Shown here in pieces: positions 889-17,335 of a DNA stretch of 64,000 bases. The translations under genes and the position numbers were made by a program. The stretch covers positions 1-64,000 of the forward strand of contig NZ_LDZY01000007.1 of assembly GCF_001029285.1 (NCBI RefSeq). Reading direction: 5' to 3'. Every line of letters starts with the position of its first letter. The first letter of the stretch is position 1. This DNA is from Desulfosporosinus acididurans (GTDB lineage Bacteria > Bacillota > Desulfitobacteriia > Desulfitobacteriales > Desulfitobacteriaceae). The notes under the pieces are model-generated. The model was not told the origin of the DNA and made no database searches. It worked only from the letters and a program-made list of their open reading frames with translations.

Positions 889-1596
889 TTATAAAACAAG
901 ACCATTTGTTGATATCGTTGCGACAGTATAGGGAATTGTTTTATTGCTATTAGCTAAGGCTTTATTTGCTGCATTCACAAGTCCTCCGCAACAGGGGACT
1001 TCCATTTTTAAAATGGTAATGCTCGAAATAGAATGACGTTTCATAATTTCGCTCAATTTTTCTGAGTAGTCGATGTTATCCAGTTTAGGACAAGCAATTA
1101 GAGTGACTTTTCCGAGCATGAATTGCTGGTGAATATTTAGATATGCGAAGGCGGTACAATCGGCAGCAAGTAATATGTCGGCGTTATCAAAGTAGGGTGC
1201 ATCGATTGATACTAATTTTAACTGACATGGCCATTGGGCGAGCTGAGATTGTGAGTTTTCTGGAGATACAACCTTAGACGATTGAACTGCTTTTGGTGAG
1301 GGTTTGCACTGGGTGCTTAGAGAAATAGAGGATAAAGAGCTTTCCGTTTCTTTCGGATTGCTATTTAAGTGTATTTTAACAGCTTCCTCATCATATTCGA
1401 CGGTTTCTCGCTCTTCAAGAGTAATAGCTCCGGTGGGGCATTCAGGCAGGCAGTCGCCGAGGCCATCGCAATAGGTTTCAGAAATAAGCGTGGCTTTACC
1501 GTTAACTAATTGCAATGCTCCTTCATGACAAGCATTAACACAGAGCTTGCATCCGTTGCAAAGTTCCTGATTTATGGTAATAATTTTACGTTTCAT
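889..1596 (-). CDS. 4Fe-4S dicluster-type ferredoxin protein
   Basis: A 235-aa protein. The N-terminus carries a classical cluster motif, C13-x2-C16-x2-C19-x3-C23, then a variant second motif with C43, C49 and C53 (CDGLGDCLPECP). A low-complexity Ser-rich linker (about 85-115) leads to a C-terminal domain of about 120 residues with the motif EVPCCGG. This arrangement is known for a family of small Fe-S proteins of strict anaerobes. The function is not established; redox transfer or redox sensing is inferred. The start is set by AGAGGTG upstream of ATG 1596. It is monocistronic and convergent with the rRNA operon. Confidence 0.8.
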   Translation of the reverse strand: MKRKIITINQELCNGCKLCVNACHEGALQLVNGKATLISETYCDGLGDCLPECPTGAITLEERETVEYDEEAVKIHLNSNPKETESSLSSISLSTQCKPSPKAVQSSKVVSPENSQSQLAQWPCQLKLVSIDAPYFDNADILLAADCTAFAYLNIHQQFMLGKVTLIACPKLDNIDYSEKLSEIMKRHSISSITILKMEVPCCGGLVNAANKALANSNKTIPYTVATISTNGLVL

Positions 1597-1953: not shown

Positions 1954-2862
1954 ATGGAATGGGCTTTAGGTATTCCCAACATTGAAAAAGTATATTTTAT
2001 GGACGATCCCTGGTGTGAAAATAATGTATTTCGATCCGGCATGATAAAAGAAATTAGTGAGAACGTCTTGGGGGAAATTTTATTTACAAGGATATATTTT
2101 GGACAAGAATTTTGCGAAAGGTCAATACCTTCCTTACGCGAGGTTCTAGATGTTTATTCTCGAGCGAGAGAATACGGTCAAGAATTAACTTTAGTTACGC
2201 CTTATGTGACAGAAAATGGTCTAACAAAGCTGCGGCAGTTATTGCAAGGTTTGTCAAAGGAAGGTTTAGCATTAGAAGTTGTAGTTAATGATTGGGGAAT
2301 ATTATATTTACTCAATAAAGAATATCCTGGTTTTAAACCTATAATAGGGCGACAGTTAAATAAGGCTTGGCGTGATCCGCGAATTGGAACTCTGACCGAA
2401 AACAAGAAAAAAAGCCATAGTCAAAAATCTAGTTCTTTACCTATGACGAGCTTTGAAAGCGATATTATACAAAAGGTTTTTACGGACTTTGGGGTAAGTC
2501 ATGTTGAATTAGATATTCCGCCGAGCGGATTAAATGATTTTGAACGATGGAATAATAAAGTTTCTTTATACTTTCCATATACCGCAATAACAAGCGGCAG
2601 GATGTGTCTTTTACGGTCATGGGGATACCAAAAAGGCGATAAGTTTAAAACAACAGACAAAACCTGTGGACACACTTGCAGACAATTCTGGGTAGAACTT
2701 TCAGATAAATCAGGTCAAGTTCCTGTGTCTCCAAATTGGCATATTGTTCAAAAAGGTAATGCAATTTTTTGTGTATTTAAGGAAGGTTTCCTTAAGGATA
2801 CGCTTAATATTATATCGCGAATAGGGATTGACCGCTTAATTTTTCAACCTGAGCCCATTTGA
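1954..2862 (+). CDS. U32-family protein, UbiV-like with Fe-S cysteines
   Basis: A 302-aa protein resembling the smaller, UbiV-type members of the U32 'peptidase' family, which are TIM-barrel proteins. Cysteines at 54, 218, 238 and 242, the last pair as CGHTC, follow the order known for the 4Fe-4S ligands of E. coli UbiV (single, single, then CxxxC). The start ATG 1954 is chosen because GAGGTG lies 9 nt upstream; an in-frame GTG at 1942 overlaps that site. It is followed 18 nt later by a second U32 gene, so the two probably form a heterodimer as UbiU and UbiV do. UbiUV catalyse oxygen-independent hydroxylation in ubiquinone synthesis. Whether this pair acts on a quinone, RNA or another substrate cannot be told from the sequence. 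Confidence 0.65.
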   Translation: MEWALGIPNIEKVYFMDDPWCENNVFRSGMIKEISENVLGEILFTRIYFGQEFCERSIPSLREVLDVYSRAREYGQELTLVTPYVTENGLTKLRQLLQGLSKEGLALEVVVNDWGILYLLNKEYPGFKPIIGRQLNKAWRDPRIGTLTENKKKSHSQKSSSLPMTSFESDIIQKVFTDFGVSHVELDIPPSGLNDFERWNNKVSLYFPYTAITSGRMCLLRSWGYQKGDKFKTTDKTCGHTCRQFWVELSDKSGQVPVSPNWHIVQKGNAIFCVFKEGFLKDTLNIISRIGIDRLIFQPEPI

Positions 2863-2880
2863 GGAGAGGAGGGCTAAACA

Positions 2881-3882
2881 TTGAAAATTCTAGCCCCTTT
2901 AACTTCGTTTGAAGAGGGAAAAGCTCTTATTTCAGAAGGAGCAAAAGAATTGTATTGCGGTCTGCAACCTAATTATTGGGATTCGGTTTCCGGAGATAGG
3001 TTTTGGCTGAACCGCCGAGGTCCTAGTCAAGGCAATTTGCCAAATCTAGAGGAATTATCTAAAGTTGTTGGATTGGCCCATGCTCATGATGTGAAAGTTT
3101 TTCTAACATTGAATCAGTCTGTCTATTCAAATTCCTTGTACCAAGAAATCTTAAAGTTCGTTAGAGAAGTTTATGCGATTTGCAGCCCAGATGCTCTGAT
3201 AATTGGAGATCCTGGTCTGATGAAAATGATGAAGGAGAAAATGCCGGAAGTAACGCTTCATGCAAGCAGTTTAGGAGGAATTCTCAACACAGAGACTGCC
3301 AAGTTTTTTCGCGATTTAGGCGCGAAGAGACTGATTTTTCCAAGATATTTGGATTTAGAAGATATGGCTAATATCATTCAAAAGATCGGTTCAGATGTGG
3401 AGTATGAAGCCTTTGTACTCAATGATGGGTGTATTTTTGAAGAAGCGTATTGCTTTGCAAATCATGCTTTTAGTGGTGCGATTTGTCATAACCCCCATTG
3501 GATTTATAAACTTTATGATAAGAATGGACAATCAAGAAAAGAAGATAACTGTTCTTTTTCTCAGCATCTCATGGATTATCGTGAATTTATTTATATAGGG
3601 ATCAAAAATATGGGCGAAAGTATCAGTCCCAAAGGAGACCCTATGGGCATGTGTGGACTTTGTGCATTACCGGAACTAAAAGCAATGGGTGTATGTTCTC
3701 TTAAAATCGTTGGGAGAGAATCGTCTCTTGAAAAAAAAGCGGCGAGCGTAAGGCTGTTGAGAAAATCTCTTGCAAGTCTAGAAGGGGAGGAAAATCCCGA
3801 GATTCTCAAGTTATGTTTTCGGATGATGCGTTCTATTCCGAAATTATGTGATAGCAGTTATATGTGTTATTACCGAGACTAA
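2881..3882 (+). CDS. U32-family protein, UbiU-like partner
   Basis: A 333-aa U32-family protein. The N-terminus (KILAPLTSFEEGKALISEGA, 2-21) and the 'ELYCG' segment match the usual U32 opening. Cysteines at 184 and 191 (C-x6-C), 202, 224, 258 and 261 (CGLC) are candidates for a 4Fe-4S site; a C-x6-C pair is also part of the UbiU ligand set. It starts at TTG 2881 behind an exceptionally strong GGAGAGGAGGG site. It is co-transcribed with the preceding UbiV-like gene. The protease activity implied by the historical family name is doubtful; Fe-S-dependent modification chemistry is more likely by family analogy. Confidence 0.7.
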   Translation: MKILAPLTSFEEGKALISEGAKELYCGLQPNYWDSVSGDRFWLNRRGPSQGNLPNLEELSKVVGLAHAHDVKVFLTLNQSVYSNSLYQEILKFVREVYAICSPDALIIGDPGLMKMMKEKMPEVTLHASSLGGILNTETAKFFRDLGAKRLIFPRYLDLEDMANIIQKIGSDVEYEAFVLNDGCIFEEAYCFANHAFSGAICHNPHWIYKLYDKNGQSRKEDNCSFSQHLMDYREFIYIGIKNMGESISPKGDPMGMCGLCALPELKAMGVCSLKIVGRESSLEKKAASVRLLRKSLASLEGEENPEILKLCFRMMRSIPKLCDSSYMCYYRD

Positions 3883-16498: not shown

Positions 16499-17335
16499 TT
16501 GCATAAGATAGGCTATCTCGGACCGGAAGGAACCTTTTCCCAGCAAGCGGCTCAACATTATTGCTTTAATAAACAAGAAGCTGCTTTAGTTAGTTTGCCA
16601 AGTATTCGTGAAGTTCTTTTGTCCGTTCAACGCAATGAATTGGATTTAGCCGTTATCCCTTTTGAAAATTCCTTAGAAGGTTCAGTTAATATTGTCTTGG
16701 ATGTATTGGCCTGGGAAGTAGACCTCTTGATTGTTGATGAACTTATTTTACCCATATCTCAAACATTAATGGTTACTCCAGGGGCTGATTGGGAGAGAAT
16801 TTCTTCTGTTTATACCCATCCTCAATCCGCAGGGCAATGCCGGCTCTTTCTGGAAACTCATCTTCCCCAAGCAAAAGTATACTTGACGAGCAGCAATGCC
16901 GAGGGAGCTAATCAAGCGCAGATGTCTGGAAGAACTGCGGGTGCAATCGGACCGGAAGCTGCTGCAGATAAATTCGGACTCCAAGTAGTCTTGCGTAATA
17001 TCCAAGATAAAAATAATAACTTCACACGATTTGTGGTTGTCGGCAAAAAGTCGATCCATCTTCCGGCAGGCCGAAACAAGACTTCAATTGTTTTTTCAAC
17101 GGAACATACGCCGGGGAGCTTAGCGTGTATCCTAGACATTTTCAATTTATGGGATATTAATATGACTAAAATTGAATCGAGACCTTCTCGTGGTCAATTA
17201 GGGCGCTACATTTTTTTTATTGATATCGATGGACATTTATCTAATCCGGATGTTCGTGATGCTTTGACAATGGTACAGCGTAAAACAAATTTCTATAAAT
17301 TTTTGGGTTCTTACCCCATGGCAGAGATTGATTAA
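16499..17335 (+). CDS. pheA: Prephenate dehydratase
   Basis: A 278-aa monofunctional enzyme that converts prephenate to phenylpyruvate in phenylalanine synthesis. It opens with GYLGPEGTFSQQAA, carries the catalytic-region motif NNFTRFVVVG, and ends in an ACT domain with the allosteric ESRPSRGQLGRYIFFID segment (feedback by phenylalanine). There is no chorismate mutase domain. It starts at TTG 16499 behind AGGAGGG. It stands alone with its own promoter and terminator. Confidence 0.95.
   Translation: MHKIGYLGPEGTFSQQAAQHYCFNKQEAALVSLPSIREVLLSVQRNELDLAVIPFENSLEGSVNIVLDVLAWEVDLLIVDELILPISQTLMVTPGADWERISSVYTHPQSAGQCRLFLETHLPQAKVYLTSSNAEGANQAQMSGRTAGAIGPEAAADKFGLQVVLRNIQDKNNNFTRFVVVGKKSIHLPAGRNKTSIVFSTEHTPGSLACILDIFNLWDINMTKIESRPSRGQLGRYIFFIDIDGHLSNPDVRDALTMVQRKTNFYKFLGSYPMAEID

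Follow-up and report, generated by a model that had tools for sequence, protein, structure and literature searches.

A family of paired U32-like proteins in Desulfosporosinus acididurans and other bacteria, with a proposed role in oxygen-independent hydroxylation of aromatic rings

We describe pairs of adjacent genes, A and B, that encode U32-like proteins with conserved cysteines and that were found in Desulfosporosinus acididurans and other genomes, in part within operons for quinohemoprotein amine dehydrogenase (qhp). The interpretation that we favor, with moderate confidence, is that these pairs are Fe-S heterodimers of a new U32 family and would hydroxylate aromatic rings without O2, the substrate being a peptidyl tryptophan in the branch associated with qhp operons. 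Based on genome context, the novelty would reside in the family itself and in the replacement of QhpG, the O2-dependent dihydroxylase of these operons. Our literature search, in a library with limited coverage of subscription journals, did not find, among the papers listed, any link between tryptophylquinone and UbiU or between U32 proteins and QhpG.

A conserved pair of adjacent genes

The window is the whole 64,000-nt stretch of D. acididurans DNA that was analyzed, and it presents the pair near its beginning:

1954..2862, + strand: gene A, 302 aa, intact ORF with an ATG start at 1954 and a stop at 2862; UbiV-like partner in the proposed paired family, with putative 4Fe-4S ligands C54, C218, C238 and C242
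2863..2880, + strand: A-B spacer, 18 nt, with a probable ribosome-binding site for B, GGAGAGGAGGG (motif judged by eye)
2881..3882, + strand: gene B, 333 aa, intact ORF with a TTG start at 2881 and a stop at 3882; UbiU-like U32 protein with cysteines C184, C191, C202, C258, C261, C323 and C329

The ORFs, both on the + strand, confirm the adjacency and the 18-nt gap reported by the first-pass annotation of this DNA, and the cysteines were found where it had placed them: C54, C218, C238 and C242 in A (with a CxxxC) and C184 and C191 in B (C-x6-C). An in-frame GTG is also present at 1942, but it overlaps the probable ribosome-binding site.

Gene A was found in 11 of the 60 relatives that were searched (the window's own genome included), in 16 of 82 genomes of the class and in 10 of 398 genomes of the phylum. 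One of the class matches, a 57-residue stretch in G056 that contains a stop, was dropped, and loci L055, L061 and L068 lie outside the further comparison. At each of the 27 loci compared, A directly precedes B on the same strand, with spacings of 10-372 nt, and this identical arrangement indicates that the pairing is not due to chance. The distances of A and B are correlated (r = 0.95), and none of 2000 permutations reached a value as high. The A protein of G008, a genome of the same genus group, is 92% identical to that of the window; Desulfosporosinus belongs to Bacillota. No close relative of A was found in the plasmid, phage and viral collections. These collections yielded a partial match on a faecal contig labelled Bacteriophage, and a divergent A-B pair on a plasmid of Roseburia sp. 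831b (L067, 4482-7170), whose A presents a long N-terminal extension and whose surroundings include genes for a heavy-metal ATPase and for a cysteine desulfurase.

Relationship of A and B to known U32 proteins

The description of A and B as two U32-family genes is directly shown for B, which matches PF01136 with 127 bits against a Pfam cut-off of 22.4, but not for A, for which profile searches returned no Pfam or NCBIfam match, PF01136 included. The U32 kinship of A appears solely through profile-profile comparison, where a profile of 27 trimmed A-type rows was joined to UbiV with a probability of 80% (E-value 1.3e-5). This probability grew with depth, from 1.3% (11 rows against a single UbiV) to 47% (20 rows) and then 80%. 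The local match spans residues 46-139 of A and places C54 opposite C39 of UbiV, and the global alignment (34%) extends over the full length of the proteins and superposes their CxxxC pairs. The A profile scored 8.5% against UbiU and 76% against the B-type proteins. Because the latter value is near that obtained for UbiV, A is best regarded as a U32-like protein for which UbiV is the best but not the sole candidate, and we favor UbiV only moderately as its kin. By sequence, the link between A and UbiV is weak.

The four-cysteine set that is typical of UbiV (C54, C218, C238 and C242 in A) is kept in all 27 loci, with a second-to-third spacing of X19 in A versus X12 in the UbiV pattern CXnCX12CX3C. 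The invariant core of A further includes N112, W114, G115, D141, P142 and R143 (18/18 aligned rows). A sequence search of the PDB yielded nothing useful for A or B, and an AlphaFold model of A built from a two-sequence alignment has a pLDDT of 36.

Protein B matches the UbiU profile with a probability of 99.9% and falls below the NCBIfam equivalog cut-offs of both UbiU (82 bits versus 440) and TrhP (82 bits versus 534). We built a tree of 37 proteins (27 B-type, 6 UbiU, 2 TrhP and 2 RlhA rows), in which all B-type proteins fall into a single clade (100/100, stem of 2.52) apart from UbiU, TrhP and RlhA, and in which UbiU is monophyletic (100/97). B does not group with TrhP or RlhA. The other U32 genes of the window's genome, one TrhP-like and one RlhA-like, do group with the corresponding E. 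coli proteins. Six cysteines of B (C184, C191, C202, C258, C261 and C329) are kept in 27/27 loci and C323 in 26/27. The first three correspond to those of the UbiU pattern CX6CX16CX38C, and the fourth would be C258 or C261, in another register of the alignment. In the alignment, E. coli UbiU and TrhP have nothing equivalent to C258/C261 (CGLC) or to the C-terminal C323/C329, and these extra cysteines may stand in for the fourth ligand and coordinate an additional cluster. We consider a new U32 family to be the best explanation of these results, set apart from the UbiU, TrhP and RlhA proteins compared here; Kimura et al. (PMC6747719) list unnamed U32 groups as well, PepU32#1-#6.

The pair thus resembles UbiU/UbiV (YhbU/YhbV), the anaerobic ubiquinone hydroxylase, which is likewise a pair of adjacent U32-like proteins. 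The proposal of a paired U32-like Fe-S protein, with cysteines of the UbiV type in A and of the UbiU type in B, is supported by these comparisons. In contrast, several features set A-B apart from a UbiU/UbiV pair proper: the order of the genes is reversed relative to E. coli (A, the V-like gene, precedes B, the U-like gene), the B proteins form their separate long-stemmed clade with additional invariant cysteines, the genomic contexts differ, and no convincing SCP2 partner was found near 16 lone pairs.

Pairs within qhp operons

Eight of the 27 pairs, all from Bacillota, are located inside qhp operons, between qhpB and qhpF. They represent every Bacillota qhp locus with full flanks (8/8), and at each of them QhpA, C, D and E are present and QhpG is missing (0/8). 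The genomes were surveyed for QhpC using PF08992, which yielded 1 of 82 genomes of the class (G075), 3 of 398 genomes of the phylum (G269, G202 and G212) and 7 of 299 genomes in the order of G269, itself included. The match of G212 was rejected as spurious, being below the cut-off and interrupted by internal stops. Nine genomes possess a true QhpC (G075, G202, G269, G479, G503, G505, G555, G621 and G635) and the CWW cofactor motif is kept in all nine Bacillota loci. A genome-wide search for QhpG, run without a positive control, gave no match in G075, G269, G202, the window's genome (G000) or G227; for G479, G503, G505, G555, G621 and G635, its absence was judged within stretches of 16-19 kb.

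The reverse was observed in Proteobacteria. Among seven proteobacterial qhp controls, taken from 26 plasmid records that were found, six carry QhpG and none carries the pair. The QhpG query matches 7CTQ, the peptidyl tryptophan dihydroxylase, with an E-value of 3.8e-41, and recovers QhpG at 33-58% identity in five of the six other proteobacterial loci. The locus without a match, L066, is a qhp operon of Novosphingobium sp. RL4 in which neither QhpG nor a U32 pair occurs over ~16 kb, and the corresponding tryptophan hydroxylase may be encoded at another site. QhpG has been shown experimentally to be a dihydroxylase that introduces two O2-derived oxygens onto the tryptophan precursor of CTQ (PMC7876137). 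The presence of the pair where QhpG is missing, and vice versa in the proteobacterial operons, suggests that it has a hydroxylase role in the qhp branch, where it would fill the place of QhpG. QhpG, however, is an FAD- and O2-dependent enzyme of another fold, whereas the pair is presumed to rely on Fe-S clusters and to be independent of O2.

The qhp-linked B proteins form a single subclade (98/85). The eight loci are related, and this distribution possibly reflects a single replacement event. One genome, G202, presents QhpC, QhpA and a partial QhpD with no match to the pair or to QhpG. It could be an exception, but it does not decide the matter, as its contig breaks off within QhpD and the genome has a completeness of 83%.

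A RiPP-like locus

Another pair is located in L054, from the complete genome G227, where it is flanked by a radical-SAM/SPASM protein that resembles PapB and QhpD and by a B12-binding radical-SAM protein. A Trp-rich ORF of 40 codons with a ribosome-binding site, ending in GGSGGVTAQHYWAWTEPE, precedes the radical-SAM gene by 72 nt and presumably encodes a precursor peptide. This locus (L054, 5390-13088) is possibly a RiPP cluster. Its pair forms a long branch in the tree and has an uncertain position.

Stand-alone pairs

Lone pairs account for 17 of the 27 loci (the window and 16 others), and their neighbors vary. Across the 16 lone loci with long enough flanks, no neighbor was shared between clades besides A, B and generic families, which we named by eye as ABC ATPases, response regulators, MFS transporters, integrases and surface-repeat proteins. 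Inspection by eye of the DNA up to 1.5 kb from 16 lone pairs revealed no conserved small precursor ORF, and no family specific to quinone synthesis was recurrent in their flanks. The best match to a UbiT-like (SCP2) gene near these pairs has an E-value of 0.41 and is not meaningful. In addition, QhpC gave no match in the genome of the window. The negative results for QhpC and for a small precursor weigh against our proposal in the window branch, where a peptide substrate is a hypothesis.

Proposed function and alternative explanations

UbiU and UbiV each bind a [4Fe-4S] cluster through cysteines that match those of A and B (PMC6747719), and the hydroxyl source reported for the class of U32 hydroxylases is prephenate (PMC11574389). 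On these grounds, we propose that A pairs with B in a heterodimer whose two U32-like barrels would each carry a [4Fe-4S] cluster, as judged from the ligand positions, and that this heterodimer would transfer a hydroxyl group to aromatic rings without O2. If the analogy with UbiUV applies, the donor would be an organic molecule such as prephenate. In the qhp branch, the target ring would be the CTQ-precursor tryptophan of cross-linked QhpC, with the pair substituting for QhpG. In the RiPP-like branch, the target would probably be a tryptophan or tyrosine of the short precursor. The window branch would most likely act either on an aromatic side chain in a protein or peptide whose gene is located elsewhere, or on an aromatic small molecule. 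That its chemistry is the same is suggested by the invariant core of A. The idea of a distinct Fe-S hydroxylase, raised by the first-pass annotation, gains support from the qhp and RiPP-like operons of relatives, and a substrate other than a ubiquinone precursor now appears probable.

We advance a broader version of this proposal more tentatively, as one that may well prove wrong: paired U32 Fe-S enzymes would need no oxygen to hydroxylate aromatic peptides and to make protein-derived quinone cofactors, with an O2-free route to CTQ in Bacillota, and the lone Desulfosporosinus branch would act likewise on a protein or peptide yet to be discovered, which could provide this strict anaerobe with a quinone cofactor of a new kind. 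The known substrates of U32 hydroxylases are quinones and RNA, and ribosomal peptides would constitute a third class if the proposal is true. Tryptophylquinone cofactors would then not need to depend on O2. The qhp operons that carry the pair in place of QhpG offer a clean system in which the source of oxygen and the mechanism can be tested.

Alternatively, it is conceivable, although rather unlikely, that the substrate of the window pair, like that of UbiUV, is a small aromatic compound (quinone precursor or secondary metabolite), and that only the qhp and RiPP-like branches moved to peptides. The kinship of A and B to UbiU and UbiV is in line with this scenario, and the many pairs that stand alone without a conserved neighbor would suit a diffusible substrate. 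However, the flanks of the lone pairs contain neither a credible UbiT-like gene nor a recurrent family for quinone synthesis, and the patchy presence of A among relatives is unlike that of a core respiratory quinone pathway. Ubiquinone biosynthesis by a true UbiU/UbiV pair is barely credible: the order of the cysteines matches, but the separate clade and its long stem, the reversed gene order and the lack of a convincing SCP2/UbiT neighbor all argue against it. Ubiquinone synthesis is not known in members of Bacillota, which also counts against it.

An accessory function appears improbable. The pair could serve QhpD in the qhp operons, for example as an Fe-S donor or chaperone, and the window pair could take part in Fe-S assembly or electron transfer; both proteins carry candidate Fe-S ligands, and a radical-SAM enzyme of the peptide-maturase type is found near the pair in nine of the 27 loci (eight qhp and one RiPP-like). 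Yet the pair is missing from the proteobacterial qhp operons, which have the same QhpD; since six of these seven operons carry QhpG instead, the role left empty in Bacillota would be hydroxylation. The suggestion of an RNA-modifying complex, also made by the first-pass annotation, is disfavored, and we regard an RNA hydroxylase resembling TrhP and RlhA as very improbable. B scores about equally on the TrhP and UbiU models, and these enzymes share a U32 domain and conserved cysteines of the Fe-S type with the pair (PMC6747719); their O2-independent hydroxylation, in which prephenate is implicated (PMC11574389), would be another common trait. But TrhP and RlhA are both single-gene RNA hydroxylases of a different clade, the window's genome has separate homologs of each, and relatives of the pair lie within operons for peptide or protein maturation.

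Surroundings of the pair in the window

One neighbor of the pair might be related to its activity:

889..1596, - strand: two-cluster ferredoxin-like protein with a C-terminal domain, 235 aa, Fer4 domains; divergent from the pair

Of 16 lone loci, three have this gene next to the pair, namely the window and its two nearest relatives (G008 and G009), and its product is a possible electron donor. A prephenate dehydratase-like gene, recognized by eye, lies at 16499-17335 (+), ~12.6 kb from the pair. Prephenate is the hydroxyl donor presumed here, but a link between this gene and the pair is speculative.

The contig starts inside an rRNA operon, with the 3' end of the 23S rRNA at 1-208 and a 5S rRNA at 327-443, so the pair lies ~1.5 kb downstream of both the rRNA operon and the assembly break. 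A repeat of 28-48 nt occurs at 514, 663 and 851. Positions 724-797 hold a second copy of part of the 5S region (89%), which perhaps represents a degraded or duplicated 5S; a single 5S scores above the Rfam cut-off.
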